Shown here: one piece after another, positions 5,964-54,702 of the stretch
Numbering within the stretch: the stretch's first letter is position 1
Layout: every line of letters starts with the position of its first letter
Source of the DNA: an uncultured Roseobacter sp.
Lineage (GTDB): Bacteria; Pseudomonadota; Alphaproteobacteria; Rhodobacterales; Rhodobacteraceae
Assembly (NCBI RefSeq): GCF_947499265.1
Contig: NZ_CANMNK010000006.1
Span: forward strand, 248,001 to 312,000
DNA: 64,000 nucleotides
Direction of reading: 5' to 3'
Notes under the pieces: model-generated
What the model was told of the DNA's origin: nothing
The model's database searches: none
What the model saw: the letters and a program-made list of their open reading frames with translations, nothing else
Position numbers and translations under genes: made by a program

Positions 5964-6274
5964 GGTGTTTCAGACTTTTCTGTTATTTGCGATGAGAGAG
6001 GCGACAGCGTCGCGTAGCACGACGGGAATGGTCGCGCATATACAGCGGGCACAGAGGCGCAGAATGTCGCGCAAAGCCGGGGAAAATCGCGCATGAAGGG
6101 GAAAGTTGCCGAGAAAACGGCAAACCTCTGCCGAGAGCAAGCGCATTTACATCAGGCCGTCCAGCAGCGATGACCTGCCATCTGCCGCACCTTCAAAACT
6201 TGGCTTTGACGCGCGTGTTGCGTGACGTTTAGCGAAAGCAAACCGGATCAACCGGCCCGGAAACTGTCATCTCA
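5964..6274. promoter_or_regulatory. divergent intergenic region between CAP-domain and acyltransferase genes
   Basis: These 311 bases carry no supported gene and must hold the promoters of both flanking genes. A small perfect stem TTGCCG/CGGCAA (6106-6111 and 6118-6123) is present. No clear -10/-35 pair or operator could be fixed. Confidence 0.4.
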
Positions 6275-36441: not shown

Positions 36442-37476
36442 ATGCTCACAAAAGCAACAGTAGTGAGCATGGCCGCAGCCGCGATTGCCATGCTTCCTGG
36501 CGCAGTTCTGGCGGAAAGCCCGACTGTCAAAGAAATTCAGGAACGGGGCACGATGCTATGTTCCGGCCATAACGGAAGCTACTTTGGCTTCGTCGAAGTG
36601 AACGACAAGAACGAATGGAAAGGCCTCGACATCGACATCTGTCGCGCTCTGACCACGGCGATTCTGGGCGATCCGGAAAAGGCGCAGATCGTGCCGTTGA
36701 GCTGGGCGCAGCGTTTCCCGGCTTTGCAATCGGGCGATGTCGACATCATCATCAAGGCCACCGGTTGGACCATGGGGCGCGACACGGAACTGGGCTTGCA
36801 ATTCTCGCTGCCCTACTTCTTTGGCGGCACACAGTTCATGGCGCATGGTGAGCTTGGCATCACCGATGCCACGGGGCTTGAGGGCGGTACGATCTGCGTG
36901 GAAGCCGGTACGACGATTGAGCGTATCTCGGCCAACTACATGTCCACGATAGGCGTCGAACATACAATCGTTTCCTATGAAAGCGCTGCCGAACTGAGGG
37001 CCGCCTATCTGGCGAACCGCTGCGATGCCTTTGCCGGTTGGGGGCCGAACCTCGCGGTGCTGCGGGCAACCGAGATCGACAATCCGGACGCGCATATCAT
37101 CCTCAGCGACAAACTGTCGAGTGAGCCGATTGCGGCCGCCATGCGTCAGGGGGACGAGGACTTCGTCGATGTCGTGAACTGGATGCTGGCCGCGCTGCTG
37201 ATCGCAGAAGAAGAGGGCGTGACAAAAGCGAATGTGGCCGAGATGGCCGCAACACCGCCGAACCCGCGCGTGGCCCGTCTGCTGGGTGTGGAGCCGGGCA
37301 TGGGCGAACGTCTTGGCCTGCGCGAAACATGGGCCCGCGAGATGATCGCGGCCATGGGGAACTTTGGCGAAATCTACGATCGTAACCTCGGCAAAGACAG
37401 TGCCTATAACCTCGATCGGGGCCTGAACAATCTTTGGAGCCATGGTGGCGTGCTCTACGCACCGATCCTGGACTGA
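36442..37476 (+). CDS. aapJ: amino-acid ABC transporter substrate-binding protein (AapJ type)
   Basis: The protein has 344 residues. AGGGA lies nine bases before ATG 36442. A signal peptide (VVSMAAAAIAMLPGAVLA) is followed by the family-3 solute-binding domain: VKEIQERGTMLCSG, WKGLDIDICRALTTAILG and LSWAQRFPALQSGDVDIIIKATGWTM. It is of the long AapJ type, which binds polar L-amino acids in the periplasm. Two permease genes follow at once. The actual ligand may be narrow, given the catabolic genes nearby. Confidence 0.87.
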   Translation: MLTKATVVSMAAAAIAMLPGAVLAESPTVKEIQERGTMLCSGHNGSYFGFVEVNDKNEWKGLDIDICRALTTAILGDPEKAQIVPLSWAQRFPALQSGDVDIIIKATGWTMGRDTELGLQFSLPYFFGGTQFMAHGELGITDATGLEGGTICVEAGTTIERISANYMSTIGVEHTIVSYESAAELRAAYLANRCDAFAGWGPNLAVLRATEIDNPDAHIILSDKLSSEPIAAAMRQGDEDFVDVVNWMLAALLIAEEEGVTKANVAEMAATPPNPRVARLLGVEPGMGERLGLRETWAREMIAAMGNFGEIYDRNLGKDSAYNLDRGLNNLWSHGGVLYAPILD

Positions 37477-37554
37477 TCCGAAGATCCCTGGGGCCGCCTC
37501 TCATCTCGGCGGGGTGGCCTCCACACAGACTTCAGCAAGAAATCGGGGGCAGTG

Positions 37555-38691
37555 ATGGCGACCGCAATGGAACTGCGCACACGTGCGAAACGGCGCAAAC
37601 TGATCATCCAGGGCGCTTTGATCGTCCTGTCGGTCATTGTCGTCCTGGGGGCCATCCAAAGCGCGCGTGTCAATCTCGCCGCACTCGGGATCACCAGCGG
37701 GTTCGGCTTTCTGGAACGCGGGACCGGTTGGGATTACAGCTTCTCCCTGATCCCGAAAAGCATCAATGACCCCTATTCCAAGACGCTTTTCATCGGCTTT
37801 TTGAACATGATGTTCGTTGGCTTTATCTCCATCATTCTATCGACCATCTTCGGGTTTCTCTTTGGCACGGCACGCGACGCGTCAAACATCGCACTCAAAA
37901 CCGCGGCCTCTGTCTATGTGCAGATTTTCCGGAACATTCCGCTCATCCTGCAATTGATATTCCTCTATTCCGTTTTGATCCATTTCCCGGGACCCCGGCA
38001 GGCAATGAGCATCGCGGATGCGGTATTCCTGTCGAACAGGGGTGTCATGATCCCGGGCCTGAATGTCCCGCCATCCGTTGCCCTGGGGCTTCTGATTGCA
38101 TCGCTTTTGTTGGTTGCGGTTCTGATCCTGCTCAAGACACCCTTGATGCGCGGGCTGCTCTATTGGCTTGGCGGCACCGTGTTTGGCTGCATCGCCGCAG
38201 CGCTGATCTTTGCCCCGGCAGGAGAGAGCATCTTTTCGATCCCGGCGCTGGCTGGGTTGCGGTTCCGGGGCGGGATCACCGTGCCGATTGAGCTGGCCGC
38301 GATGATCGTCTCCATCGTGCTTTACGGCAGCGCCTACATTGCAGAGGTTGTGCGTGGTGGCCTGAACCAGGTTCCACGCGGTTTGACCGAAGCGGGTCAA
38401 GCGCTCGGCCTGACGCCACGCTATATCTGGTCACGCATCAAATTGCCCATGGCGCTGCGCAGCATCATTCCGCCGCTGGTCAACCAGTGGATTTTCATCA
38501 TGAAGGCCACGACCATCGGCGTGGCGATTGGGTTCAGTGACCTTTTCATGCTGGTGTCGACCTCGATCACCCAATCGGGCCAGACCCTGGAACTGATCGC
38601 GATCCTGATGCTCGCGTTTTTGCTGGTGAACTTCGCCATTGCGCAATTCGGCAATTGGCTCAACGCACGTATGAAGCTGAAGGCACATTGA
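37555..38691 (+). CDS. aapQ: amino-acid ABC transporter permease (AapQ type)
   Basis: The protein has 378 residues from ATG 37555, with GGGGG just upstream. A hydrophobic first segment (IIQGALIVLSVIVVLGAIQS), several further helices and the EAA loop (EAGQALGLTPRYIWSRIKLPMAL) mark a HisMQ-type inner-membrane permease. The large central insert between helices (about residues 140-250) is normal for AapQ. It pairs with the next gene to form the membrane channel. Confidence 0.87.
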   Translation: MATAMELRTRAKRRKLIIQGALIVLSVIVVLGAIQSARVNLAALGITSGFGFLERGTGWDYSFSLIPKSINDPYSKTLFIGFLNMMFVGFISIILSTIFGFLFGTARDASNIALKTAASVYVQIFRNIPLILQLIFLYSVLIHFPGPRQAMSIADAVFLSNRGVMIPGLNVPPSVALGLLIASLLLVAVLILLKTPLMRGLLYWLGGTVFGCIAAALIFAPAGESIFSIPALAGLRFRGGITVPIELAAMIVSIVLYGSAYIAEVVRGGLNQVPRGLTEAGQALGLTPRYIWSRIKLPMALRSIIPPLVNQWIFIMKATTIGVAIGFSDLFMLVSTSITQSGQTLELIAILMLAFLLVNFAIAQFGNWLNARMKLKAH

Positions 38692-38692
38692 C

Positions 38693-39784
38693 ATGACCGA
38701 TATGATCACAACTCTGACCGCGCGCCCCAGCCGCATGCAGGCCTTTGTCAAATCCATGAAGCGCAACGCCTTTGGCACGCCCTTGGATGCGGCCATCACA
38801 ATCATCGTCTTCAGTGTTCTGGCCTATTGGGCTTGGCTGCTGGTCGATTGGGCGGTGCTGCGCGCGGTCTGGCGCGCCGAGGATGTGGGCGATTGCACTG
38901 AAGAGGCGGGTGCCTGCTGGTCGGTCATTGCCGGGCGGCACCGTCTGATCCTCTTTGGCCTTTACCCTTTCGAGCAGCATTGGCGTTCAACACTGGCCTG
39001 CCTTGCGATCATCCTGACCGTGATCTTCTCCTGTTTCCCGCAAGCGTGGTCGGGAAAGCGACTGACGCTGTTGTGGGGTGTCGGGTTTGCCGCCTATTAC
39101 CTGTTGATGGAAGGCAGCCTTCTGGGCCTGCAACAAGTGACCACTGACCAATGGGGCGGGCTGGCGCTGACGCTGTTCCTGTTTGCTTCGGTCGTGCTTC
39201 TGGGCATGCCAATGGGGTTGGGGCTGGCCCTGATGCGGCGGTCCGACATGCCGGTGGTGCGCGGCTTTGCGACGCTGATCATCGATTTCATCCGCTCCCT
39301 GCCGCTCCTGACGACCCTCTTCACGGCTGCCGTGGTGGTGCCGATCCTGCTGCCCAGCTGGCTCGAAGGCGACAAGATCTGGCGGGTGATCATCGCCTTT
39401 GCGTTGTTCTTTGCCTGCTATCAGGCGGAGGTTTTCCGCGGTGGTTTCCAGGCCATTCCATCGGGTCAGTTCGAAGCGGGCAAAGCGCTTGGGCTAAGCT
39501 ATTGGAGCATCCTGGGGCGTATCGTGCTGCCGCAGGTTTTCCGTCATGCGCTGCCAAGCACGATCAACATGGTGGTTGTGACCTTCAAGGAAACGGCGAT
39601 TGTGATCATCATCGGGTTCTTCGATATCCTGGCCTCGGCCAAAGCCGCTTTTGGCACCGGGGAATGGGCGCCGCATTATCTTGAAGTCTATGTGTTTGTG
39701 GGCGCGATCTATTGGGTGTTCATCTTTTCGCTCGGGCAGTACGGCGAATACCTGAAAGGCCGGATGTCGATCGCGGCACGCTGA
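38693..39784 (+). CDS. aapM: amino-acid ABC transporter permease (AapM type)
   Basis: The protein has 363 residues and starts one base after the previous stop, so translation is probably coupled. It has a long N-terminal part with cytoplasmic and periplasmic sections (WLLVDWAVLRAVWRAED), then HisMQ-type helices and the EAA loop (FEAGKALGLSYWSILGRIVLPQVF). The operon ends here without the ATPase that such transporters need; a fitting ATPase gene lies 14 kb downstream at 53965. Confidence 0.87.
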   Translation: MTDMITTLTARPSRMQAFVKSMKRNAFGTPLDAAITIIVFSVLAYWAWLLVDWAVLRAVWRAEDVGDCTEEAGACWSVIAGRHRLILFGLYPFEQHWRSTLACLAIILTVIFSCFPQAWSGKRLTLLWGVGFAAYYLLMEGSLLGLQQVTTDQWGGLALTLFLFASVVLLGMPMGLGLALMRRSDMPVVRGFATLIIDFIRSLPLLTTLFTAAVVVPILLPSWLEGDKIWRVIIAFALFFACYQAEVFRGGFQAIPSGQFEAGKALGLSYWSILGRIVLPQVFRHALPSTINMVVVTFKETAIVIIIGFFDILASAKAAFGTGEWAPHYLEVYVFVGAIYWVFIFSLGQYGEYLKGRMSIAAR

Positions 39785-39806
39785 TGCGGGATTGCGCCTG
39801 CTTGCG

Positions 39807-40166
39807 TCATTCCAGCGGCGCACGTCGCAGGGCGTCGCGGGTCTGGCGCAACGTGTCCAAAAACCGGCTGGTGGATGCGAGGCGCGCCTCCACCTCGGCG
39901 ATTTTGCTGGCCAGAAAGGCGTCGCCGTCGAAGGCCTCGCTGTCCTCTGGGTTGAGCTGAGAGAGGAAGATCGAGAGATCACCAATGCTCATGCCCGCGG
40001 CTTGCGCGTCGCGGATGACCTGCAAAGTGAGCACCGCGTCCTCCGGATAGGACTTGTAATTATTGTCCCCTTCGCGGGCCGTTGCGGTCAGGAGGCCCTG
40101 TTTTTCATAGAAGCGGATAGCGTCGCGGCTGAAACCGGTTTGCTTTGCAAGTTGTCCGATCCGCAT
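39807..40166 (-). CDS. MerR-family transcriptional regulator
   Basis: The protein has 119 residues from ATG 40166; a further 6 residues upstream are possible. The MerR winged helix is at residues 1-70 (MRIGQLAKQTGFSRDAIRFYEKQGLL), followed by a dimerisation helix (FLASKIAEVEARLASTSRFLDTLRQ). No cysteine is present in the tail, so it is not a classic metal sensor. It is divergent from a small zinc-ribbon gene, whose promoter carries a MerR-like operator. Confidence 0.85.
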   Translation of the reverse strand: MRIGQLAKQTGFSRDAIRFYEKQGLLTATAREGDNNYKSYPEDAVLTLQVIRDAQAAGMSIGDLSIFLSQLNPEDSEAFDGDAFLASKIAEVEARLASTSRFLDTLRQTRDALRRAPLE

Positions 40167-40177
40167 GTTTATAACCA

Positions 40178-40209
40178 TTGACAAAAAACCATGGTTTCTA
40201 GTCTATTGT
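40178..40209 (+). promoter_or_regulatory. MerR-type promoter with over-long spacer and palindrome
   Basis: TTGACA (40178-40183) and TATTGT (40204-40209) are 20 bases apart, longer than the usual 17. A perfect 12-base palindrome AAACCATGGTTT (40186-40197) lies in the spacer. This is the hallmark of promoters that MerR proteins activate by twisting the DNA. It drives the zinc-ribbon gene and overlaps the start of the regulator gene, which suggests autoregulation as well. Confidence 0.75.
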
Positions 40210-40237
40210 TTTTCAGATCAGGATCAAGGAGAAAGAC

Positions 40238-40489
40238 ATGGGCCAACGCTGTCAGAGTTGTGGTATGCCGCTGAACAAGGATCCAAAGGGCGGCGGGTCC
40301 GAGAAAGATGGCAGTCTGAGCACGACATATTGCTCAATCTGCTATGAGGATGGGGCGTTTCGGCATCCGGGTGTTTCCGTCGAAGAGTTTCAGGCCCATT
40401 GCGTCGATGCCCTTGCGGATAAAGGCATGCCGCGCATCATGGCCTGGGCCTTCACCCGCGGCATCCCGAAACTTGATCGCTGGGCCTGA
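40238..40489 (+). CDS. small zinc-ribbon protein
   Basis: The protein has 83 residues. AGGAG precedes ATG 40238. C5-Q-S-C8 and C32-S-I-C35 form a zinc ribbon of the type found in putative zinc-ribbon proteins (MGQRCQSCGMPL, TTYCSICYEDG), followed by a helical C-terminal half (VSVEEFQAHCVDAL). Its function is not known. The MerR promoter suggests that it is induced by the signal the regulator senses. Confidence 0.8.
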   Translation: MGQRCQSCGMPLNKDPKGGGSEKDGSLSTTYCSICYEDGAFRHPGVSVEEFQAHCVDALADKGMPRIMAWAFTRGIPKLDRWA

Positions 40490-40537
40490 GCCAATCGGGA
40501 CCAGCGGTACCGGTCAGGTCCTGAAAAGCCCTTTGAC

Positions 40538-41176
40538 CTAATCCAAGATGACAGATCCCTTTGGCGTATTGAGCGCAAAGGACAGTGCTGCTGGACCCTC
40601 CTGCACATCGGCAAGGTGATCGACGTTGAGGGCTTCAAGCATCTTGGTCAAAGCATCCGGATCAGGATGCGAGAGCTGTATCTGTTCAAGCGTGACCCCA
40701 AGATCCTGTTGCCCTGTGCTGGGGTGCGGACCGGGGGACCATTCGATGAACGCAGGCAGCAGGCCGCCCATGGGCAGGCTGCCGTCCCTGGGCACGGTCA
40801 GGCGCCAGGATCGGTCGCCGCGGGTAAAGAGGACAACCTCTCCCAGATCGACGGGGCTGGCTGCAAGCACACCGTCCAGATCGTCGGTGCCAACCACCCA
40901 GCACAGCGCCCGGGGGCGTTCGGCCAGGCGCTCTTGTGTCGCAGGCTCGTCGAGGGTGAACCAACGGGTGCGCCCCGGATCGGCAGGGGCCTCAAGATCG
41001 ATTGCGATCAGTTCAAAGAAGCTCTCGTTGCCCGCTTGCATGACGCAGTTATGCGTGCTCATCGCTTCATGTTTGCCCCCACGGGGGACCTCGACGCCAA
41101 GCGCTTGCGCCATGGCGATGATGCCCTGGTCCAGGGTGTCCGCACCGATGGCGAAATGGTCGATTTTATTGTGCAT
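40538..41176 (-). CDS. VOC/glyoxalase-like domain protein
   Basis: The protein has 212 residues. The beginning IDHFAIGADTLDQGIIAMAQALG and NESFFELIAIDLEAP are the two strands of a glyoxalase-like (VOC) domain with H7 and E53-like metal ligands. A second half begins with GVTLEQIQLSHPDPDALTKML. The gene lies three bases after the stop of the beta-lyase gene on the same strand and so forms an operon with it. A role in binding a metabolite of the lyase reaction is possible but unproven. Confidence 0.65.
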   Translation of the reverse strand: MHNKIDHFAIGADTLDQGIIAMAQALGVEVPRGGKHEAMSTHNCVMQAGNESFFELIAIDLEAPADPGRTRWFTLDEPATQERLAERPRALCWVVGTDDLDGVLAASPVDLGEVVLFTRGDRSWRLTVPRDGSLPMGGLLPAFIEWSPGPHPSTGQQDLGVTLEQIQLSHPDPDALTKMLEALNVDHLADVQEGPAALSFALNTPKGSVILD

Positions 41177-41179
41177 GGG

Positions 41180-42364
41180 TCACTCCGACGCAGAATTCAG
41201 ATGGGGAAGGGCGGCGGCGAGATCCGCCTTGAGGCTGGCGGGGTCTTCGAGGCCAATATTGAACCGCACCAATTGGCCGTCTTCAGTCCAGGGGGTTGCG
41301 GTGCGAACGGGCTTGACCGGCAGCACGAGGCTTTCGTAGCCGCCCCAGCTGACGCCAATGCCAAAGAGCTGCAGCGCATCGACGAAGGCGCGAATTTGAG
41401 CGTCCGAACAGGGGTGGAAAATCACGCCAAAAAGCCCCGCAGCCCCGGTGAAATCGCGCGACCATACATCATGACCGGGGCAGGCCGGAAAGGCCGGATG
41501 AAGCAGGGTTTTGACCTGCGGTTGCGCGGCCAGCCACGCGGCAATATCGCGTCCGGCGCGGTCGATGGTTTCCATCCGCATTTTCAGCGTGCGCAGGCCA
41601 CGCAGGCATAAAAAGACTTCCTGCGCTCCGGTTTTGTCGCCAATCGCCATGACAGTTTGGCGGATTTGGGCGTGATACGTCGCATTGCTGGCAATCATGC
41701 CCATCATGCAATCGGAATGACCGCTGAGATATTTCGAGCAGGAGGCAACGATCACATCTGCGCCCAGGGTCAGCGGTTGGCAAAAGATCGGTGTCGCCCA
41801 AGTGCTGTCGATGATTGAGGGCACGCCTGCCGCGTGGGCCGTTTTGGAAATGGCACGAATGTCCGGTACCTCAAACGTGCCGGAGCCGGGCGCTTCGAAC
41901 ATCACGGCACAGGTCGTATCGCGCAGCCGCTTTCCCAGATCACCGTCGATCATGGGGTCGAAATACTCAACCTCGACACCCATGCGCCGCAGGACGCTTT
42001 CGCAAAACGCGCGGGTGTTGCCATAGACTTGATCTGCCACCAGCAGATGCGCACCGGGCGCGGCAAAGGCCAGGAGCGTGCAGGATATCGCGGCGACGCC
42101 GGAAGAGGTGAGGGTTACACCATGGGCCTGTTCGAGCTTTGCCAACATCGTCTCAAGCTGGAAGCTTGCCGCGTTGCCATATCGTCCGTAATACAATGTG
42201 TCAGTATCATAGCGCGCCTCGCGTGCTGCCTCGAACGCCGCAAGAGTGTCGAAGACGATGGTGGAGCCTAGTTCAACCGGCATGTTGACATGCCGACCGT
42301 CAACCCGCGAGGGGCGCCCAAGGTGCACCAGATCATCAGAAATCGCGGATTTGTCGGAGGTCAT
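41180..42364 (-). CDS. metC: cystathionine beta-lyase-type PLP enzyme
   Basis: The protein has 394 residues from ATG 42364; the frame is open to 42409. Cys/Met-metabolism PLP-enzyme features: YYGRYGNAASFQLETMLAKLE, TLTSSGVAAISCTLLAF, IDSTWATPIFCQPLTLGADV and SCSK211YLSGHSD with the cofactor lysine. MetC enzymes cleave C-S bonds of cystathionine and other S-substituted cysteines to give thiol, pyruvate and ammonia. It is divergent from the molybdoenzyme gene. Given its neighbours it may act on an S-alkylcysteine rather than serve methionine synthesis. Confidence 0.8.
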   Translation of the reverse strand: MTSDKSAISDDLVHLGRPSRVDGRHVNMPVELGSTIVFDTLAAFEAAREARYDTDTLYYGRYGNAASFQLETMLAKLEQAHGVTLTSSGVAAISCTLLAFAAPGAHLLVADQVYGNTRAFCESVLRRMGVEVEYFDPMIDGDLGKRLRDTTCAVMFEAPGSGTFEVPDIRAISKTAHAAGVPSIIDSTWATPIFCQPLTLGADVIVASCSKYLSGHSDCMMGMIASNATYHAQIRQTVMAIGDKTGAQEVFLCLRGLRTLKMRMETIDRAGRDIAAWLAAQPQVKTLLHPAFPACPGHDVWSRDFTGAAGLFGVIFHPCSDAQIRAFVDALQLFGIGVSWGGYESLVLPVKPVRTATPWTEDGQLVRFNIGLEDPASLKADLAAALPHLNSASE

Positions 42365-42435
42365 TGCGGTCTCGCCCAAAAAAGAGTTTTTGGAGGATGA
42401 CACTCTCACTAAGTTGTGTCAACATTCGGAATATG

Positions 42436-42454
42436 TGTTCTTTATATTGGCACA
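42436..42454. promoter_or_regulatory. copy of the shared 19-base promoter motif (metC/molybdoenzyme)
   Basis: On the minus strand this reads TGTGCCAATATAAAGAACA. It matches the minus-read 46.1 kb copy at 14 of 19 positions and the plus-strand 36.4 kb copy (TGTGCTGATATACAGAACA) at 16 of 19. It sits in the 105-base divergent promoter of metC and the molybdoenzyme gene. A TTGTGTCAA lies at 42414-42422, so TTGGCACAA/TTGTGTCAA form an imperfect inverted pair. Confidence 0.5.
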
Positions 42455-42469
42455 AAAGGCAAGGCTAGG

Positions 42470-45614: not shown

Positions 45615-45630
45615 GGCCCGCCAGCGCGGA

Positions 45631-46038
45631 TCAGTCCCTTTTTTTCGGTTCCGGCATTTCCACGGGCCCGCCCTGATCGGCCCAGGTTGAGAATCCTTTC
45701 TTGAGGTGGGCAGCGTCAAATCCCATTTGCTTCAGGCTCGCAACGGTGAGGGCGGAACGCCATCCTGACGCGCAATGGAAGACGTATTTTTTGTCCTGGC
45801 CGAACACCTCCTTGTAATACGGGCTGTCGGGGTCGATCCAGAATTCTATCATGCCGCGCGGGGCGTGCACGCTTCCGGGGATGAAACCGCTACGCTGTCT
45901 TTCCCGGATATCGCGGATGTCGACGATCACCACATCGGGGTTGTCTATCATCCCGATCAGATCCTTTGTTTCGATTTCTTCAATCTGCGCGCGCGCGGCT
46001 TTGACCATGTCAGCGGCCGCGGTCTTGAGCTTTTTCAT
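45631..46038 (-). CDS. rhodanese-like sulfurtransferase
   Basis: The protein has 135 residues from ATG 46038; the frame extends to 46086. A single rhodanese domain with VVIVDIRDIRERQRSGFIPG and the active-site loop H-C89-A-S-G-W-R-S is present. It passes sulfane sulfur to cyanide, thiols or protein partners in the cytoplasm. It is divergent from the FAD oxidase operon, from which it is separated by 123 bases with the shared promoter motif. Confidence 0.87.
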   Translation of the reverse strand: MKKLKTAAADMVKAARAQIEEIETKDLIGMIDNPDVVIVDIRDIRERQRSGFIPGSVHAPRGMIEFWIDPDSPYYKEVFGQDKKYVFHCASGWRSALTVASLKQMGFDAAHLKKGFSTWADQGGPVEMPEPKKRD

Positions 46039-46068
46039 TCCTAAATCCGTGCTGTTATATAGAATATA

Positions 46069-46087
46069 TATTTCATATATTGACACA
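46069..46087. promoter_or_regulatory. copy of the shared 19-base promoter motif (rhodanese/oxidase operon)
   Basis: On the minus strand this reads TGTGTCAATATATGAAATA and matches the copy at 42436-42454 at 14 of 19 positions; over a wider 28-base window the two loci agree at 21 positions. It lies in the AT-rich divergent promoter between the rhodanese gene and the long operon. Confidence 0.5.
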
Positions 46088-46161
46088 ATGAAATGGATGC
46101 TGCAACCTTGCCCACGTCAATACGGCACCCCGAACCGGTGCTGTCTTGGAGGAGTTTCGAA

Positions 46162-47436
46162 ATGACGGTACGAAGCCCAATTTCGCTTTGGGACGCTTCG
46201 GCGAAAGAACAGGACTATCACAGCCCGCTTGACGGTGACGCAACCGTTGATGTGGCGATTGTCGGGGGCGGGTTCACCGGATTGTCCAGTGCCCTGCATT
46301 GCGCCGAAAAGGGGATGTCGGCGCAGGTGGTCGAGGCCGCCCAAATCGGGTTTGGCGGGTCGGGGCGCAACTGTGGTCTGGTGAACGCCGCACTCTGGCT
46401 GCCGCCTCAGGAAGTGCGTGAGGAATTGGGCCGGGTCTATGGGCCGCGGTTCATCAAGAAATTCGGCAGCGGGCCGGAATATGTGTTCTCGTTGATCGAG
46501 AAACACCAGATCCAATGTGAGGTGACCAGAACCGGCACCATTCACGCCGCCCACGCCGCCAGTGGTTTTCGCGACCTGAAGGGGCGGCATGAGGAATGGG
46601 TGCGTCTGGGCGAACCTGTGGATCTTCTGAACCGCCAGGAAGTCTCCGACATGATCGGAACCGATGCATTCCACGGTGGTCTTCTGGATCACCGCGCGGG
46701 GACGATTAACCCGATGGGGTATTGTCGCGGGCTGGCGCGCGCGGCCCTCGCGGCGGGTGCAAAGATCAGCACCGGCGTCCGGGCGACGAAACTGCGCAAG
46801 GACGGTAACCTTTGGAAGCTGGAGACCAGCAAGGGCACGCTGAGCGCCAAAGCCGTGGTGCTGGGGACCAATGCCTACACCGATGATCTGTGGCCTGATC
46901 TGAAACGCGTCTTCACCACGATCCATTACTTTCAACTGGCGACCAAACCTCTGGGATCGGAGGCCGATCATATCCTGCCCGGCAAACAGGGGCTTTGGGA
47001 TACCGGCCAGATCATGTTCAACATCCGCCGCGACGCGTTCAACAGGCTGCTGGTTGGCAGCATGGGCAAGGTTGTGGGTGGTGTGAATGGCGGTCTGTCC
47101 CATCGCTGGGCCAGAAAGCAGATCGCGCGTATTTTCCCGTCGCTGGGGCCGATGGAATTTGAGGAGGCATGGCATGGCCAGATCGCGATGACCCCCGATC
47201 ACCTGCCGCGCATCTACGAATTGGACAAGAACCTTTTCACGCCCATCGGGTACAATGGGCGGGGCATCACGACCGGCACCATGTTCGGCCAAACCATCGC
47301 CGATCTTCTGACCGGGATGGACCGCGCGGATCTGCCCTTGCCCATGACCGAGCTTAAGACTGTACCGTCGGCCCCGATCATGTCCCGTCTTTATCAGACG
47401 GCTTTCACCGCCAACCAAATTCTCAAGAGCATCTGA
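46162..47436 (+). CDS. FAD-dependent amine/amino-acid oxidoreductase (DAO family)
   Basis: The protein has 424 residues. GGAGG nine bases before ATG 46162 fixes the start; ATG 46093 lacks one. The FAD dinucleotide fold is VAIVGGGFTGLSSALHCAEKG, followed by IGFGGSGRNCGLVN, a mark of the glycine/sarcosine and gamma-glutamylputrescine oxidase branch. LGTNAYTDDLWPDL and YNGRGITTGTMFGQTIADLL complete the second FAD contact. It oxidises an amine C-N bond. It is first in a tight operon of seven to eight genes. Confidence 0.83.
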   Translation: MTVRSPISLWDASAKEQDYHSPLDGDATVDVAIVGGGFTGLSSALHCAEKGMSAQVVEAAQIGFGGSGRNCGLVNAALWLPPQEVREELGRVYGPRFIKKFGSGPEYVFSLIEKHQIQCEVTRTGTIHAAHAASGFRDLKGRHEEWVRLGEPVDLLNRQEVSDMIGTDAFHGGLLDHRAGTINPMGYCRGLARAALAAGAKISTGVRATKLRKDGNLWKLETSKGTLSAKAVVLGTNAYTDDLWPDLKRVFTTIHYFQLATKPLGSEADHILPGKQGLWDTGQIMFNIRRDAFNRLLVGSMGKVVGGVNGGLSHRWARKQIARIFPSLGPMEFEEAWHGQIAMTPDHLPRIYELDKNLFTPIGYNGRGITTGTMFGQTIADLLTGMDRADLPLPMTELKTVPSAPIMSRLYQTAFTANQILKSI

Positions 47437-47440
47437 CCCT

Positions 47441-49528
47441 ATGACCTCTTCCTCGATCCGCGTCGGCGTTGATATTGGCGGCACATTTACGGATGTCGCG
47501 CTCGAACATCCCGGCGGTTTGGCGACATGCAAGGTGTTGACGAACTACAGCCAGCCCGAGCAGGCCATTCTTGATGGGATTGCACAGGCGGCGGCACAGG
47601 CGGGGTGCGACCTGGCAGCGATTGATCAGGTCATTCACGGCACAACCCTGGTGACCAATGCGCTGATCGAACGGCGCGGCGCCAAGCTTGCGTTTATCAC
47701 CACAGAAGGGTTCCGGGACGTTATCGAAATGCGCTCCGAGAACCGGTTTGAGCAATATGACCTGAACCTGACACTGCCCAAACCTTTGGTCGCACGCCGG
47801 GATCGTTTCACGCTGAACGAGCGCATGGGCCCGGCTGGCGAGGTTTTACTGCCCCTGGCCGAAGACGACGTGGCGGCGATGGTCGAACGCATCCTCGCAG
47901 GTGGCTACGAAGCGGTCGCCATTGGCCTGATGCACAGCTATGCAAATGACGCCCACGAACGGCAGATGGCGCAGGCGTTGCAGGCGGCAGCGCCGCAGCT
48001 GTCGATTTCGATCTCCTCCGTCATTTCACCGCAAATGCGGGAATTACCGCGGTTTAACACGGTGATCGCGAATGCCTATGTGCAGCCGCAGGTGGCCGAT
48101 TATCTGGGACGGCTTGTGGAGCGCCTGCGGCAGGCAGGGGTTAGGGCGCCGGTTTTCATGCTGCATTCGGGTGGGGGACTGATCTCGGTGGAAACGGCGG
48201 CCGAGCAACCGGTGCGCTTGCTGGAATCCGGTCCTGCAGGCGGCGCAATTTTCGCGGCGCATCTGGCGCGGGGCCATGGGCTTGATAAGGTGCTCTCCTT
48301 CGATATGGGGGGCACCACGGCCAAGATCTGCCTGATTGAAGACGGCGCGCCCAAGACGGCAAACACCTTTGAGGTGGCGCGAACCTATCGCTTCAAAAAG
48401 GGTTCCGGCATGATCATTTCGACCCCGGTGGTCGAGATGGTCGAGATTGGAGCCGGTGGGGGCTCGATTGCCTCGATTGACAGCATGGGGCGCATTCAGG
48501 TCGGGCCGCGGTCAGCGGCCTCCGAACCCGGACCGGCTTGCTATCAACGCGGGGGTGAGGCGCCGACCGTGACGGATGCGAACCTGTTGCTGGGCCGTCT
48601 GGATCCCGAGAATTTCGCGGGCGGTGCGATCCCCTTGTCCACAGAGGCCGCGCGCCGTGCAGTCGCGGCGGAGTTGACGGTTTCGACCGGGCTCGAAGTG
48701 CCGGATGCCGCCTTTGGCGTGACCGAGATGGTTGATGAGAACATGGCAAATGCCGCGCGCGTTCATACGGTCGAGAACGGGCGTGACATCGAGCATTTCA
48801 CGATGATCGGATTTGGCGGTGGCGCGCCATTACACGCCTGCCGCTTGTGCGAAAAGCTGGGCATTGAAGAACTGATCATCCCGCCCGGCGCGGGTGTCGG
48901 CTCGGCCATTGGTTTTCTCAAGGCGCCCTTCAGTTATGAGGCGACGCGCGGGCTGTTTCAAAAGCTTGATCAGTTCGACGCAACAGCCGTGAACGCCGCA
49001 TTGAACGAGATGGAGCGGGAAGCACGCGCTTTTGTCGACGATGGGGCAAGGGGTGCGGCAACGACAACACGGTTGACCGCATTCATGCGCTATTCCGGGC
49101 AGGGCTGGGAAATCCCCGTATCGCTGCCGCATAAGGTGTTCGAAAATAGCGATCAAAAACTGATCCTCGCAGCGTTTGAAGATGCCTACCGCACGTTATT
49201 TGGCCGCATCATCGACGGGTTGAAGGCCGAGATCACCAATTGGTCTCTGGTGGTGGCAACGGTGCTGCCTGATGTGGTCAAGATCGCACGGCACGACAGC
49301 GGCACGCCGGCAGACGCAAATCGGGAGGTCAGCTTTTTTGATGCTGCGCGGCGCGCGATGGTTGCCGCGCGTGAGGTCGAGCGCACGGCCATGACACCGG
49401 GAAAGATCGTCGATGGGCCTGCCGTGATCGTTGAAAACGAGACCACGACCATCGTGACATCCGCCTATCGCGCAATCGGGCAGGGTGACGGCAGCCTGCT
49501 TTTGCGCCGCAAGGGAGAGGCCGCATGA
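47441..49528 (+). CDS. hyuA: hydantoinase/5-oxoprolinase subunit A
   Basis: The protein has 695 residues. The actin-like ATPase motifs are VGVDIGGTFTDVALEHPGG and LSFDMGGTTAKICLIEDG, with GAGGGSIASIDSMGRIQVGP following. HyuA with HyuB hydrolyses an amide ring (N-methylhydantoin, hydantoin or 5-oxoproline) at the expense of ATP. Start 47441 lies four bases after the oxidase stop, and the end overlaps hyuB by four bases (ATGA). Confidence 0.87.
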   Translation: MTSSSIRVGVDIGGTFTDVALEHPGGLATCKVLTNYSQPEQAILDGIAQAAAQAGCDLAAIDQVIHGTTLVTNALIERRGAKLAFITTEGFRDVIEMRSENRFEQYDLNLTLPKPLVARRDRFTLNERMGPAGEVLLPLAEDDVAAMVERILAGGYEAVAIGLMHSYANDAHERQMAQALQAAAPQLSISISSVISPQMRELPRFNTVIANAYVQPQVADYLGRLVERLRQAGVRAPVFMLHSGGGLISVETAAEQPVRLLESGPAGGAIFAAHLARGHGLDKVLSFDMGGTTAKICLIEDGAPKTANTFEVARTYRFKKGSGMIISTPVVEMVEIGAGGGSIASIDSMGRIQVGPRSAASEPGPACYQRGGEAPTVTDANLLLGRLDPENFAGGAIPLSTEAARRAVAAELTVSTGLEVPDAAFGVTEMVDENMANAARVHTVENGRDIEHFTMIGFGGGAPLHACRLCEKLGIEELIIPPGAGVGSAIGFLKAPFSYEATRGLFQKLDQFDATAVNAALNEMEREARAFVDDGARGAATTTRLTAFMRYSGQGWEIPVSLPHKVFENSDQKLILAAFEDAYRTLFGRIIDGLKAEITNWSLVVATVLPDVVKIARHDSGTPADANREVSFFDAARRAMVAAREVERTAMTPGKIVDGPAVIVENETTTIVTSAYRAIGQGDGSLLLRRKGEAA

Positions 49529-51171
49529 CACCCACCGCCATTGACTATCAGATCATGTGGCACCGGCTGATCGCGGTGGTCGAGGAGCAGGCTACAACCC
49601 TGATCCGCACCGCGTTCTCGACCTCAGTGCGCGAGGCCGGGGATCTGTCGGCAGGTTTGTTCGATAGGCAAGGTCGGATGATGGCGCAGGCCGTGACTGG
49701 CACACCTGGGCACGTGAATGCCATGGCAGAGAGTGTTACGCATTTCCTGCGCGAAGTCGGTGCGCAGAACATCTTTGAGAGCGATGTTTTCATCACCAAT
49801 GATCCCTGGCTTGGCACCGGGCATCTGCACGACATCACCGTCGTGTCCCCGACCTTCCGTAACGGTCATCATATTGGTTTCTTCGCCTGCACTGCGCATG
49901 TCGTTGATATCGGGGGGCGCGGATTTGGGCCGGACGGGAATGAGGTCTACGAAGAAGGCCTGCTGATCCCGATCATGAAATTCGCAGAACGTGGCCGCGT
50001 GTCGGATGACCTGATCCGCATGGTCCGCGCCAACGTTCGGGCGCCTGATATGGTTGTCGGCGATATGTATTCGCTGGCCGCTTGCAACGAGGCGGGCGAC
50101 CGGCGGTTGCAGACCATGATGGGCGAATTTGGCATCGATGATCTGGATGGGCTGTCGGATTTCGTGATCGAGACCAGCCGCAAAGCCACACATGACGCCA
50201 TCGCGAAGGTGCCGGATGGGTCATTCGCCAACACCCTGCAGGTCGATGGCTATGACGCACCTGTGCAAATGGTTGTGCGCCTCGACGTGGCAGGCGACAG
50301 GCTGAAAGCGGACTTCGACGGCACCTCGGGAATGAGCAGGTTTGGCGTCAACGTGCCGGAAGTCTATACGCGCGCCTACGCCTGCTATGGATTGAAATGC
50401 GCCATTGCGCCGGATGTGCCGAACAATACCGGTTCGCTGGACCCCTTCGAGATCACGGCCCCCGAGGGCTGCATCCTCGCGGCCAAGCGGCCAGCGCCTG
50501 TGTCGGTGCGCCATGTTTTGGGACATCTGGTGCCGGATGTCGTGCTGGGTGCCTTGCACAAGGCGATGCCGGAGACGGTGCCCGCCGAGGGGGCGAGCGC
50601 GCTTTGGAACATCCAGATTTCTGCACGGCCAAGTGACGCGCAGAGCGATCTGCCCAATGCCGAGGTGTTGATGTTCAATTCGGGGGGCACCGGCGCGCGG
50701 CCCGGATTTGACGGGCTATCGGCCACCGCCTTTCCCTCCGATGTGTCGACCATGAGCGTTGAGGCCACGGAACATGTGGGCCCGATCACCGTGTGGCGGA
50801 AAGACTTGCGTGAAGGCTCGGGCGGGGCGGGGGCGATGCGCGGCGGGTTGGGCCAAACCATCGAAATCGAGCCGCGCGCAGGTTATGACATTTACTTCAA
50901 CGCGATGTTTGACCGGGTGGAAAACCCAGCCCGCGGGCGCGACGGCGGCGCTGATGGGGCAGCCGGTCGGGTTGAACTGACAGATGGCACGAAGCTGCGC
51001 AGCAAAGGCCGCCAACTGGTCAAAAACGGGCGGCGGTTGAAACTGAGCCTCCCCGGCGGCGGTGGATATGGCGCGCCTGGGGCGCGCGACCGTGCACAGG
51101 TGTCTGCGGATTTGGCGGATGGTTTCATCACCTGGGCGCAAGCCAAAAAAGACTATGGATATGAGGGATAA
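49525..51171 (+). CDS. hyuB: hydantoinase/5-oxoprolinase subunit B
   Basis: The protein has 548 residues. Typical blocks are RTAFSTSVREAGDLSAGLFD, TGTPGHVNAMAES, FITNDPWLGTGHLHDITVV and GGGGYGAPGARD near the C-terminus. It forms the second subunit of the ATP-dependent ring-opening enzyme. Overlap with hyuA indicates translational coupling. Family members include 5-oxoprolinase and acetophenone/acetone carboxylases, so the reaction remains open. Confidence 0.87.
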   Translation: MTPTAIDYQIMWHRLIAVVEEQATTLIRTAFSTSVREAGDLSAGLFDRQGRMMAQAVTGTPGHVNAMAESVTHFLREVGAQNIFESDVFITNDPWLGTGHLHDITVVSPTFRNGHHIGFFACTAHVVDIGGRGFGPDGNEVYEEGLLIPIMKFAERGRVSDDLIRMVRANVRAPDMVVGDMYSLAACNEAGDRRLQTMMGEFGIDDLDGLSDFVIETSRKATHDAIAKVPDGSFANTLQVDGYDAPVQMVVRLDVAGDRLKADFDGTSGMSRFGVNVPEVYTRAYACYGLKCAIAPDVPNNTGSLDPFEITAPEGCILAAKRPAPVSVRHVLGHLVPDVVLGALHKAMPETVPAEGASALWNIQISARPSDAQSDLPNAEVLMFNSGGTGARPGFDGLSATAFPSDVSTMSVEATEHVGPITVWRKDLREGSGGAGAMRGGLGQTIEIEPRAGYDIYFNAMFDRVENPARGRDGGADGAAGRVELTDGTKLRSKGRQLVKNGRRLKLSLPGGGGYGAPGARDRAQVSADLADGFITWAQAKKDYGYEG

Positions 51172-51177
51172 ACGACG

Positions 51178-51930
51178 ATGACCGAGACACCACTTGCTCT
51201 TGTGACCGGGGCCGCTCAGGGGATCGGCTATGCCTGCGCGGAGGCTTTGGCCGAAGACGGTGCGCGGCTTGTGCTGGCCGATATCAACGCGGATGGCGTG
51301 AAGGCGGCGGCTAAAAATTTGGGCAACGGGACTGTTGGGCTGGCCTGCGACATGGGCGATCCTGCCCAGATTGCAACGCTGTTCGATCAGATCGAGGCGG
51401 CGCATGGCGCGGTCGAAATTCTGGTGAACAATGCGGGCGTCGCCATGTCTGGTGATTTCCTTGAGACACCGCTGGAGAATTTCCAGAAGGTCATCGACGT
51501 CAATCTGACAGGAACCTTTCTGGCCATGCAACGCGCGGCCAAATCCATGGTGGCTCATAAAATTGAAGGCGCGATCATCAATATGTCATCGATCAATGCG
51601 GTTGTCGCAATTCCCTCGATTGCCGCATATTGCGCCTCCAAGGGGGGTGTTATGCAACTGACCAAGGCAACCTCCCTGGCCTTGGCCCCCCACAACATTC
51701 GTGTGAATGCGGTCGGCCCCGGCTCCATCGATACCGAGATGATGGCGGGTGTGAACGCAAACCCCGAAGCCATGAAGATGGTCATGTCGCGCACGCCGCT
51801 GAAACGCATTGGCGAAGCCCGCGATATTGGCGATGCCGTGGCCTTCCTGGCCAGCAAACGCGCAAAATACATCACCGGTGAGACCATCTATGTGGACGGC
51901 GGTCGCATTGGCATGAACTACACCTGTTGA
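51178..51930 (+). CDS. short-chain dehydrogenase/reductase
   Basis: The protein has 250 residues. TGAAQGIG (residues 10-17) binds the dinucleotide, NNAG appears in ILVNNAGVAMSG, and the catalytic set is Ser about 138, Y151 and K155 (AYCASKGG). AVGPGSIDTEMM and the C-terminal YVDGGRIG are typical of the classical SDR family. It oxidises or reduces a hydroxy/keto intermediate, with the acid-thiokinase next door as the likely next step. Confidence 0.87.
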   Translation: MTETPLALVTGAAQGIGYACAEALAEDGARLVLADINADGVKAAAKNLGNGTVGLACDMGDPAQIATLFDQIEAAHGAVEILVNNAGVAMSGDFLETPLENFQKVIDVNLTGTFLAMQRAAKSMVAHKIEGAIINMSSINAVVAIPSIAAYCASKGGVMQLTKATSLALAPHNIRVNAVGPGSIDTEMMAGVNANPEAMKMVMSRTPLKRIGEARDIGDAVAFLASKRAKYITGETIYVDGGRIGMNYTC

Positions 51931-51937
51931 GGTTTTG

Positions 51938-53854
51938 ATGAGTTCAAAATACGACGAAACATATACCACCTGGGCCAATGACCCCGTAGGGTTCTGGGGG
52001 GAAGCTGGTAAGGCCATCGACTGGTTCCGCCTGGCTGATCAGGTGTTCGACAAGGACAGTGGCGCCTATGGCCGGTGGTTCGTCGGGGCCACATGCAACA
52101 CCTGCTACAATTGCGTGGACCGTCATGTCGAGGCCGGGAAGGGGGCCAACACCGCCCTGATCTATGACAGCCCCGTGACGGGGCAAACCGCCAGCTACAG
52201 TTTTGCTGAGTTGCAGACCGAAGTCAGCGCCTTGGCCCATGTGCTGCGCGGGCTTGGCGTCGAAAAAGGCGACCGGGTCGTCATCTATATGCCGATGGTG
52301 CCGCAGGCGGTTTTCGCCATGCTGGCCTGTGCGCGGCTGGGCGCCATTCATTCCGTTGTGTTCGGTGGATTTGCCGCGCATGAGCTGGCAACACGGATCG
52401 ACGATGCCGCACCGAAGGCGATCATCTCCGCATCCTGCGGTATCGAGCCGGGCCGGGTCATCGCCTATAAGCCGCTTCTGGATGCAGCCATTGAAATGTC
52501 TGGCGCCAAGCCCGATCATTGCGTGATCCTGCAGCGCGACACGTTGCCCTGTGATCTGGTTGCCGGGCGCGATGTCGACTACGCGGATGCCGTTCAGGCC
52601 GCGAAAAAGGCGGGTCAGGGCACAGAGTGCGTGCCCGTCGCGGCAACGGATCCGCTCTATATCCTCTATACTTCGGGGACGACCGGCCAGCCGAAAGGTG
52701 TGGTGCGCGACAATGGCGGTCATATGGTCGCGCTGAAGTGGACGATGGCGCATCACTACGGTCTCGCACCGGGGGAGGTTTTCTGGGCGGCCTCCGATGT
52801 GGGGTGGGTCGTCGGACACTCGTACATTTGCTATGGGCCGCTGTTGCACGGGTGCGGAACGGTTGTCTACGAGGGCAAACCGGTTGGAACACCGGATGCT
52901 GGCGCGTTCTGGCGGGTGATCCAGGACCACAAGGTGGTGGCGCTCTTCACGGCCCCGACGGCTTTTCGTGCGATCAAGAAGGAAGACCCCAAAGGTGCGC
53001 TGATCGCCGCGTATGACCTGAGCCATTTCCGCACGTTGTTCCTTGCGGGTGAGCGCTCCGACCCGGCCACAATCGAATGGGCGCAAGAGAAGTTGCAACG
53101 CCCGGTGATCGACCACTGGTGGCAGACCGAAACAGGCTGGGCAATGTCCGGCAACCCGGTGGGCCTCGGGGCCTTTCCGGTGAAACTGGGCTCCCCGGGC
53201 AAACCGATGCCCGGCTATGACATCCGGGTGCTGGACGACGATGGCCACGAGGTCGCACCGGGTGTTTTGGGCAATATCGTCTGCAAACTGCCGCTACCGC
53301 CCTCCGGTTTCGCGACGCTGTGGAATGCCGAGGCGCGGTTTCGCAGCGCCTATTTAGACGAATTCCCCGGGTTCTACGCGACCTCGGACGCCGGGATCAT
53401 TGATGAGGACGGCTATGTTTTCATCATGGCGCGCACCGATGACATCATCAATGTCGCAGGCCACCGCCTGTCCACCGGTGCGATGGAGGAAGTGATCGCC
53501 AGCCACCCCGATATTGCCGAATGCGCCGTGGTCGGCGCGGCGGATGCGATGAAGGGGCAGATGCCGCTTGGGTTCTTTGTGCCCAACGATGGGGCAGGCC
53601 GACGTGCGGCAGACCTTGAGCAAGAACTGGTGCAACTGGTGCGCTCTAAAATCGGTGCGGTTGCAGCTTTCAAGACCGCGGTGGAAGTCGCGCGGTTGCC
53701 CAAAACCAGATCCGGAAAAGTGCTGCGCGGCACCATGCAAAAGATCGCAGACGGGGCCGCGTTCAAGATGCCCGCCGCCATTGATGACCCGGCAATCCTG
53801 ACGGAAATCGAAGCCGCGCTGAACGCGCGCAATCTGATCGGACGGAAGGCATGA
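51938..53854 (+). CDS. prpE: propionyl-CoA synthetase (acyl-CoA synthetase family)
   Basis: The protein has 638 residues from ATG 51938. Residues ~245-257 hold YTSGTTGQPKGVVRDNGG (AMP-binding), and WQTETGW, YATSDAGIIDEDGYVFIMAR and KTRSGKVLRG follow in order. The N-terminus (YDETYTTWANDPVGFW) and TCNTCYNCVDRH are of PrpE type. It activates propionate or a similar short acid with ATP and CoA. Being in this operon, it may receive the carbon skeleton of the pathway. Confidence 0.87.
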   Translation: MSSKYDETYTTWANDPVGFWGEAGKAIDWFRLADQVFDKDSGAYGRWFVGATCNTCYNCVDRHVEAGKGANTALIYDSPVTGQTASYSFAELQTEVSALAHVLRGLGVEKGDRVVIYMPMVPQAVFAMLACARLGAIHSVVFGGFAAHELATRIDDAAPKAIISASCGIEPGRVIAYKPLLDAAIEMSGAKPDHCVILQRDTLPCDLVAGRDVDYADAVQAAKKAGQGTECVPVAATDPLYILYTSGTTGQPKGVVRDNGGHMVALKWTMAHHYGLAPGEVFWAASDVGWVVGHSYICYGPLLHGCGTVVYEGKPVGTPDAGAFWRVIQDHKVVALFTAPTAFRAIKKEDPKGALIAAYDLSHFRTLFLAGERSDPATIEWAQEKLQRPVIDHWWQTETGWAMSGNPVGLGAFPVKLGSPGKPMPGYDIRVLDDDGHEVAPGVLGNIVCKLPLPPSGFATLWNAEARFRSAYLDEFPGFYATSDAGIIDEDGYVFIMARTDDIINVAGHRLSTGAMEEVIASHPDIAECAVVGAADAMKGQMPLGFFVPNDGAGRRAADLEQELVQLVRSKIGAVAAFKTAVEVARLPKTRSGKVLRGTMQKIADGAAFKMPAAIDDPAILTEIEAALNARNLIGRKA

Positions 53855-53961
53855 TCCCGCAGCACCCCTCCCGTGCCGTGGATCTTATGGTGATCGACCC
53901 GCGGCATCTCGAAGATCCCGCACCCGCAGCCACCAACCCGCAACTTTCTGAGAAGGACTGA
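53851..53961 (+). CDS. possible 36-residue small protein
   Basis: ATG 53851 overlaps the TGA of prpE (ATGA), and TGA 53959-53961 ends just before the ribosome site of the ABC gene at 53965. The sequence begins MIPQHPSRAVDLMVIDPRH and is rich in Pro and Ala; no motif is recognised. It fills the only sizeable gap in the operon, so it could be a real coupled gene or mere read-through sequence. Confidence 0.3.
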   Translation: MIPQHPSRAVDLMVIDPRHLEDPAPAATNPQLSEKD

Positions 53962-53964
53962 TCC

Positions 53965-54702
53965 ATGACCCCTGCCGTCGAAATGATCAACGTGAACAAA
54001 TACTACGGCACTTTTCACGCCCTCAAGGACATCAACCTGACCGTATCAAAGGGCGAGAAAATCGTTGTGTGCGGACCTTCCGGGTCGGGCAAATCAACGA
54101 TGATCCGGACGATCAACCAACTGGAAGAACACCAGTCGGGCGAGATCAAGATCAACGGTGATATGATCAGCGCGGATGCTCCCAATATCGAGGAAATGCG
54201 CCGCGAAGTGGGCATGTGTTTCCAGCATTTCAACCTGTTCCCGCATCTCACGATCCTTGAGAACTGTACTTTGGCCCCGCTTCTGGCGCGCAAGATTTCC
54301 CAATCCGAGGCGGAGAAAACCGCAATGGGATATCTCAACAAGGTGCAGATCGGCAATCAGGCCGACAAGTATCCGGGGCAGCTATCCGGTGGTCAGCAAC
54401 AGCGGGTCGCGATCGCGCGCGCGCTGTGCATGAAGCCGGAAATCCTGCTCTTTGACGAGCCAACCTCGGCGCTTGATCCGGAGATGATCGGCGAAGTGCT
54501 CGATGTGATGGTGACGTTGGCGCAGGAAGGCATGACCATGGTTTGTGTGACCCATGAGATGGGTTTTGCGCGGAAGGTAGCAGACAGAGTGATTTTCATG
54601 GATGCAGGCGAGATCATCGAGGAGAACGAGCCGGAAAGCTTCTTTACAGCGCCGCAAAATGATCGGACGCGGAATTTTTTGGATCAGGTTCTGACGCACT
54701 GA
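53965..54702 (+). CDS. aapP: amino-acid ABC transporter ATP-binding protein (AapP type)
   Basis: The protein has 245 residues. GAGAAGGA precedes ATG 53965. Walker A is [13 protein letters not shown], the Q-loop lies in [12 protein letters not shown], the signature is [19 protein letters not shown], Walker B is [17 protein letters not shown] and the switch His is in VTHEM. It is a full polar amino-acid transporter ATPase and the likely energy source for AapJQM encoded at 36442-39784. No permease gene lies beside it. Confidence 0.88.

Follow-up and report, generated by a model that had tools for sequence, protein, structure and literature searches.

The closest described relatives of the genes considered here come from separate systems. 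CapAB and OplAB are ATP-dependent lactamases for caprolactam and valerolactam, and OplAB, a relative of caprolactamase, is reported to open the six-membered delta-valerolactam (PMC11033972). Variovorax paradoxus TBEA6 degrades 3-mercaptopropionate, a thiol derived from thiodipropionate, with Mdo, Act and AcdA, and a cysteine-dioxygenase-like (CDO-like) enzyme and a class III coenzyme A (CoA) transferase are reported for this route (PMC6370202). Further relatives are the L-pipecolate oxidase AmaA, the C-S lyase MetC of E. coli and the BisC/Dor/Tor reductases. In a stretch of 64,000 nucleotides from an uncultured Roseobacter sp. (contig NZ_CANMNK010000006.1, positions 248,001 to 312,000; hereafter the window), genes akin to all of these lie in one set of about 14 genes at 36274-54702. 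This set is a conserved catabolic unit and not an assembly of chance neighbours. With a probability of roughly 0.5, we consider it a catabolic regulon for a ring-closed secondary-amine sulfur amino acid that would arrive as its S-oxide. A model had earlier proposed from the letters alone that these genes form a pathway for a sulfur-containing or cyclised amino acid (the original prediction); its joint, sulfur-linked gene set held up, and its order of steps is revised here. The enzymes it listed are all present as open reading frames (ORFs) with Pfam or NCBIfam matches:

36442..37476, + strand: family-3 amino-acid-type solute-binding protein (SBP); ORF from 36274, probable ATG at 36442; Pfam SBP_bac_3
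37552..38691, + strand: ATP-binding cassette (ABC) permease 1, amino-acid-type, above the HEQRo_perm_3TM cut-off
38693..39784, + strand: ABC permease 2, amino-acid-type, above the HEQRo_perm_3TM cut-off
40538..41176, - strand: VOC/glyoxalase-like protein; PF13468 (Glyoxalase_3) 117 bits; probable operon with metC
41180..42409, - strand: MetC-type pyridoxal phosphate-dependent C-S beta-lyase; probable start 42364; TIGR01324
42416..44878, + strand: BisC-type molybdenum S/N-oxide reductase; probable start 42470; TIGR00509
44844..45614, + strand: IclR-family regulator, candidate motif binder; Pfam IclR_C and HTH_IclR
45631..46086, - strand: single-domain rhodanese; probable start 46038; PF00581 65.8 bits; CASGWRS loop in the sequence
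46093..47436, + strand: DAO-family flavin adenine dinucleotide (FAD) amine/amino-acid oxidase; probable start 46162; nearest NCBIfam model AmaA
47441..49528, + strand: HyuA-type subunit of a predicted ATP-dependent lactamase; nearest PDB entry 7hk5 (N-methylhydantoinase), then 6yra (caprolactamase)
49525..51171, + strand: HyuB-type subunit; Asp-His-Asp-His metal ligands retained
51178..51930, + strand: classical SDR dehydrogenase, putatively for a hemiaminal-to-lactam step
51935..53854, + strand: propionyl-CoA-synthetase-like (PrpE-like) acyl-CoA ligase; NF007815
53965..54702, + strand: amino-acid-type ABC transporter ATPase, by family match

Judged from gene positions, there are likely five transcription units: the binding-protein gene with both permease genes (+), metC with the VOC gene (-), bisC with iclR (+), the rhodanese gene alone (-), and the genes for oxidase, HyuA, HyuB, SDR, PrpE-like ligase and ABC ATPase (+). 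Among PDB entries, the SBP is most similar to 4z9n (E 2.6e-78), which serves an amino acid ABC transporter as its binding protein.

Conservation of the set was followed in relatives. A scan with the oxidase yielded 80 loci; 43 encode an oxidase of at least 45% identity, and in the other 37, where identity is at most 42%, metC, bisC and the VOC gene had no match. Cluster-type hyuA, hyuB and SDR genes occur together in 15 of the 43 oxidase-orthologue loci. In all counts the near duplicates L046/L047 and L054/L056 are taken separately. The 15 also carry bisC, VOC and iclR genes (13 each), metC and the binding-protein gene (12 each), rhodanese (11), prpE (10), RidA (9) and Blh (6). The remaining 28 oxidase loci have no metC, prpE, RidA or Blh gene; SDR is found in 12 of them, the VOC gene in 3 and bisC in 2. 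Free variation of neighbours among relatives, which the original prediction named as evidence against its pathway, was not observed: 12-13 of the 15 hyuAB loci keep the set together. Carriers belong to several orders and include Leisingera, Labrenzia, Roseibium, Hwanghaeella, Afipia and the gamma-proteobacterium Marinomonas, which contributes one of the 15 loci, with rearranged gene order; Leisingera aquimarina DSM 24565 (L045) and Primorskyibacter sedentarius DSM 104836 (L040) are examples of carriers in culture. Most Marinomonas genes escaped the gene caller used on the loci, which had been trained on high-GC genes; a stop-to-stop search then placed a rhodanese (65%) near bisC just past the edge of the fetched locus, additional to the 11 counted. 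Distances of 11 families across 13 clusters correlate (hyuA-hyuB 0.94, metC-bisC 0.90, transporter-metC 0.41-0.57), which adds little without a housekeeping control.

The same linkage appears within the family. Among 295 family genomes, the oxidase (1e-130) occurs in 27 and bisC (at least 59% identity) in 11; metC (at least 63%) occurs in 6, never more than about 5 kb from the oxidase, and the VOC gene (at least 65%) in 7, adjoining the oxidase in 5. At 1e-50 the VOC protein was matched in 2 of 388 phylum genomes, namely the window's own and one at only 44% identity. MetC of the window type is thus found with the oxidase and not as a general family enzyme. A role of this MetC in methionine biosynthesis was rejected: its next relative in the same genome is just 30% identical, and the orthologue is confined to those 6 genomes, each time beside the oxidase.

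A second line of evidence is a promoter motif, GTGYYRNTATANAGAAYA, common to three sites in the window, each of which is a pair of inverted half-sites:

36388..36427: operator-like half-site pair upstream of the binding-protein gene; exact at 36410-36427 (+), 3-mismatch at 36388-36405 (-)
42416..42453: operator-like pair between metC and bisC, from the motif scan
46049..46086: operator-like pair between the rhodanese and oxidase genes, from the motif scan

With up to 3 mismatches the window contains 7 matches against 0.91 expected, and 6 of the 7 make up the three pairs. In the whole genome (5,227,754 bases in 28 contigs, 5.23 Mb) a search with at most 1 mismatch returned 3 matches, all exact and all at promoters of the cluster; the reversed-pattern control returned 0. 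In 14 genomes the same threshold gave 23 matches (reversed control 4), 15 of them at pathway genes: three each in G000 and G129, two each in G006, G008, G269 and G727, and one in G334. In G334, where some 560 kb separate bisC and iclR from the remaining cluster genes, the exact motif stands in front of a set of SBP, permease and permease genes (83%, 69% and 80% identity) that is not linked to the cluster. The second motif match in Afipia precedes an operon (L174) of SBP, CDO-like and class III CoA-transferase genes, and this CoA-transferase is 58% identical to the one encoded behind the SDR gene in L061. The co-regulation assumed in the original prediction was thus checked by computation, three promoters sharing one motif, and the gene set is apparently switched jointly as one regulon. 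We infer that the IclR protein of the cluster, as a repressor, would bind the shared motif at the three promoters.

Such data leave almost no room for a chance neighbourhood or a remnant without joint role. In favour of this explanation, some relatives do without several of the members, and in L050 only a short hyuA-like stretch is left between the oxidase and SDR genes. The gene content is nevertheless kept across several orders and in Marinomonas, and the promoters share the motif; for these reasons this explanation, already disfavoured, is considered extremely improbable.

The ring-side enzymes were compared with characterized families. The oxidase matches the AmaA model (NF050086) over nearly its full length with 453.1 bits, below the cut-off of 600, and differs from AmaA in that SDR and HyuAB genes follow it. 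Hydantoinase_A and Hydantoinase_B domains lie on the adjoining genes hyuA and hyuB, the same domain order as in CapAB/OplAB, and alignment to chain B of 6yra revealed that HyuB retains the Asp-His-Asp-His metal site, whose four ligands are reported as essential in caprolactamase (PMC8453981). Unlike CapAB/OplAB, the window proteins score below the cut-offs of 1000 of the CapA and CapB equivalog models (452.9 and 194.8 bits) and are encoded among sulfur genes. It is plausible from these features that HyuAB opens a lactam with ATP. The structure nearest to the SDR is 3ndr, a pyridoxal 4-dehydrogenase (model score 215.9 bits, cut-off 325). The oxidation of a cyclic hemiacetal to a lactone by pyridoxal 4-dehydrogenase offers a model for a hemiaminal-to-lactam step by the SDR, which is proposed here in place of the hydroxyacid oxidation of the original prediction. 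The PrpE-like ligase stays below both cut-offs (727.7 against 955 for NF007815, and 691.4 against 827.4). In Afipia an OCD/mu-crystallin-family gene lies between the SBP and permease genes, and genes of this family are also found in four oxidase loci. The family is one of cyclic ketimine reductases, which fits a cyclic imino acid substrate; 1,4-thiomorpholine-3-carboxylate is described as the reduced form of a cyclic ketimine (PMC7545470).

On the sulfur side, MetC passes the cystathionine beta-lyase model TIGR01324 (386.2 bits, cut-off 365.9). The catalytic residues Lys210, Tyr56, Arg58, Tyr111, Asp185, Trp340 and Arg372, shared with E. coli MetC, are retained in the window and in 15 relatives with full rows (the copy in L119 is partial). 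Arg58, which is reported to contact the distal carboxylate of cystathionine (PMC5025676), is retained in 16 of 16 relatives. In the same 16, Arg59 is replaced by Tyr, and Asp116 and Tyr238 are never present in the 15 relatives that cover those positions. We take Arg59, Asp116 and Tyr238 to be substrate-pocket residues of E. coli MetC. Because Arg58 is kept and these three are replaced, the MetC pocket would suit a substrate that bears a distal carboxylate but lacks the distal amino group, an assignment that leans in part on these presumed roles. BisC has the architecture of the BisC/Dor/Tor subfamily, scores 889 bits against TIGR00509 (cut-off 1017.55) and shows no export signal. Aligned to 7l5i and 1eu1, it keeps the Tyr and Ser of the dimethyl sulfoxide reductase active site; the Ser is presumably the active-site Ser ligand and the Tyr an active-site residue.

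Relatives add further sulfur genes, which strengthened the sulfur chemistry of the original prediction and make a sulfur reading of the cluster the favoured one. Besides the Blh-type persulfide dioxygenase (6/15) and RidA (9/15), these are CDO-like and class III CoA-transferase genes in L061, L044 and L174. RidA is not part of the window cluster; a 71% copy is encoded elsewhere in the genome. As the CDO-like and CoA-transferase pairs match the known 3-mercaptopropionate route of Variovorax, they suggest by analogy that the released thiol carries a carboxylate. Unlike the Variovorax route, the window itself carries the PrpE-like ligase, and ring opening followed by MetC, rather than thiodipropionate, is proposed here as the source of the thiol.

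From these data we infer the following route. An amino-acid-type ABC transporter would import the S-oxide, and the BisC-type enzyme would turn the sulfoxide into the thioether. The AmaA-like oxidase would then convert the ring N-CH2 group to an imine, which would be hydrated, and the SDR would take the resulting hemiaminal to the lactam. HyuAB would open the lactam with ATP to an S-(carboxyalkyl)cysteine, from which MetC would release pyruvate, ammonia and a mercapto-carboxylic acid; in this scheme HyuAB stands ahead of MetC, the reverse of the order originally predicted. In relatives, RidA would clear 2-aminoacrylate. The PrpE-like ligase would activate the mercapto-acid; in other lineages a CDO-like enzyme would oxidise it and a class III CoA-transferase activate it. 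Rhodanese and Blh would handle released sulfur. The best fit, and the simplest natural substrate, might be chondrine, an algal natural product, or another S-oxide of 1,4-thiazane-3-carboxylate, and we offer this choice only tentatively. Chondrine would proceed through 5-oxothiomorpholine-3-carboxylate and S-carboxymethylcysteine to thioglycolate; a seven-membered ring would instead yield 3-mercaptopropionate.

Thioproline (thiazolidine-4-carboxylate) or its S-oxide would make a different sulfur substrate. Oxidase and SDR would convert it to 2-oxothiazolidine-4-carboxylate, a compound opened by 5-oxoprolinase and already among the substrates first suggested, where it stays as a rival; HyuAB would then release cysteine, MetC would act as cysteine desulfhydrase, and rhodanese and Blh would dispose of sulfide. 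This would account for rhodanese and for Blh (6/15 loci) better than a mercapto-acid does, and an AmaA-like oxidase would be well matched to an imino acid with a five-membered ring. It leaves the PrpE-like ligase and the pair of CDO-like enzyme and CoA-transferase without a carboxylic thiol, and we regard it as rather unlikely. Hydantoin, creatinine and 5-oxoproline routes were rejected: HyuAB-type steps suffice for them, so that BisC and MetC, unexplained by the hydantoins and 5-oxoproline of the original prediction, would be left unused.

Acyclic substrates were weighed against a second cluster type. The only two other metC matches of the family survey (44% and 48%) both lie in it (L175 and L176), together with genes for VOC, BisC (43-45%), LysR (by a Pfam scan of L175 alone), another kind of FAD oxidase (24-27%) and a two-domain rhodanese, and without HyuAB. 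Similar kinds of genes therefore came together at least twice. This cluster type would suit S-methylcysteine sulfoxide or a like cysteine S-oxide without a ring, which BisC would reduce and MetC cleave, with HyuAB, SDR and PrpE serving a second, co-regulated nitrogen compound; so would L137, from a separate search, where metC, bisC, iclR, oxidase and transporter genes occur without HyuAB or SDR. S-alkylcysteine sulfoxides, another earlier suggestion, explain BisC and MetC, not HyuAB. We hold the two-compound explanation to be unlikely, as metC is absent from all 28 hyuAB-less oxidase loci among the 43 and the metC and hyuAB units are under one motif.

Several observations weigh against the proposed regulon for a cyclic sulfur amino acid S-oxide. 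Cluster-type hyuAB is absent from 28 of the 43 oxidase loci, 12 of them with SDR (some of these loci end at contig ends), and a search of 14 genomes with hyuAB-less oxidase loci (L103 left out) found no hyuA at 1e-150 in 5 of them and just one of 48-56% identity in each of the other 9; the oxidase-SDR pair hence also works without HyuAB. MetC, prpE and rhodanese genes are each missing from some clusters. BisC adjoins the oxidase in only 6 of the 11 family genomes that have it, and is elsewhere found beside rhodanese (L129, L132), iclR (L131, L134) or neither (L130). Of the motif matches in the 14 genomes, 8 of 23 lie elsewhere than at pathway genes, and 7 of the 14 genomes (G192, G193, G267, G726, G728, G729 and G730) have no cluster motif at up to 1 mismatch. 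The AmaA, BisC, PrpE, CapA, CapB and pyridoxal 4-dehydrogenase models are all matched below cut-off, and for the SDR the nearest structures are nearly tied (3ndr 1.5e-50, 4g81 1e-49). Relatives of BisC also reduce N-oxides, the title of the nearest PDB entry being trimethylamine N-oxide (TMAO) reductase. Finally, three Defluviicoccus-type loci (L062, L066 and L067) combine the oxidase-SDR pair with amidohydrolase and Rieske oxygenase genes and have no sulfur genes; perhaps they represent another ring-amine pathway.

The last two points are those that would speak for a sulfur-free nitrogen heterocycle or N-oxide: BisC, whose family includes TMAO reductases, would reduce the N-oxide, oxidase, SDR and HyuAB would open the ring, and MetC would cleave another beta-substituted alanine. 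The Defluviicoccus-type loci also carry HsaA-like oxygenase and OCD-family reductase genes, and their oxidase and SDR in the company of Rieske oxygenase, HsaA-like oxygenase and amidohydrolase would suit such a substrate. Rhodanese, Blh and the CDO-like genes, tied to the cluster by linkage or motif, would stay unexplained, which makes a sulfur-free compound very unlikely in our view. Homarine, a possible marine substrate of such oxidase-SDR sets, was set aside, no matching operon being among the literature matches listed.

If a cyclic sulfur amino acid S-oxide is indeed the substrate, lactam formation and opening would act on it ahead of C-S cleavage, chemistries seldom seen together, and marine bacteria would gain access to ring-shaped sulfur compounds. 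The shared motif predicts which genes rise together and points to the thiol-dioxygenase branch in other lineages. Possibly, and we say so with reserve, this would be the first bacterial route for S-oxides of chondrine-type cyclic thioether amino acids, by reduction, lactam formation, opening and a dedicated MetC to a mercapto-acid, under one IclR regulon across marine alpha-proteobacteria, Afipia and Marinomonas. Among the literature matches listed, limited to open papers and thus a weak absence, no route for bacterial chondrine or cycloalliin catabolism was present; nor was a published cluster combining these genes found in the open-paper literature, where absence proves little.

The VOC gene, overlooked in the original prediction, lies directly behind metC and is kept in 13 of the 15 hyuAB-bearing loci. 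The AlphaFold model of its product has a pLDDT of 89.7, and a structure search gave VOC-type matches at superfamily level only (epimerases, HPPD and a hypothetical protein). Also overlooked were two ORFs at 39807-40489, between the transporter and VOC genes, a MerR-like one (-, named from sequence) and a small Cys-rich one (+); neither had a match at 40% identity among the 43 oxidase loci. Rfam and tRNA scans of the window found nothing, and no record of a plasmid search covered 80% of the query.

Related gene sets were noted elsewhere. In L041 a second DAO-family FAD oxidase (5331-6698) is encoded next to the transporter, bisC, iclR, oxidase and SDR genes, with related genes in L043 and L049. 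At L120 (6471-13928), in the same genome as the window, another HyuAB pair (57% and 60%) is accompanied by an SDR gene, a LysR-like gene and a PrpE-like gene (63%); related HyuAB sets in L141 and L142 come with FAD oxidase and aldolase-like genes. A SulP sulfate permease gene adjoins the cluster in L045 and in the near-duplicate pair L046 (18886-20559) and L047. In the window, a sulfatase-family ORF (34589-35902, -) lies upstream of the binding-protein gene, and sulfatase-like ORFs, named from sequence, are also close to the variant loci L043, L051 and L142.

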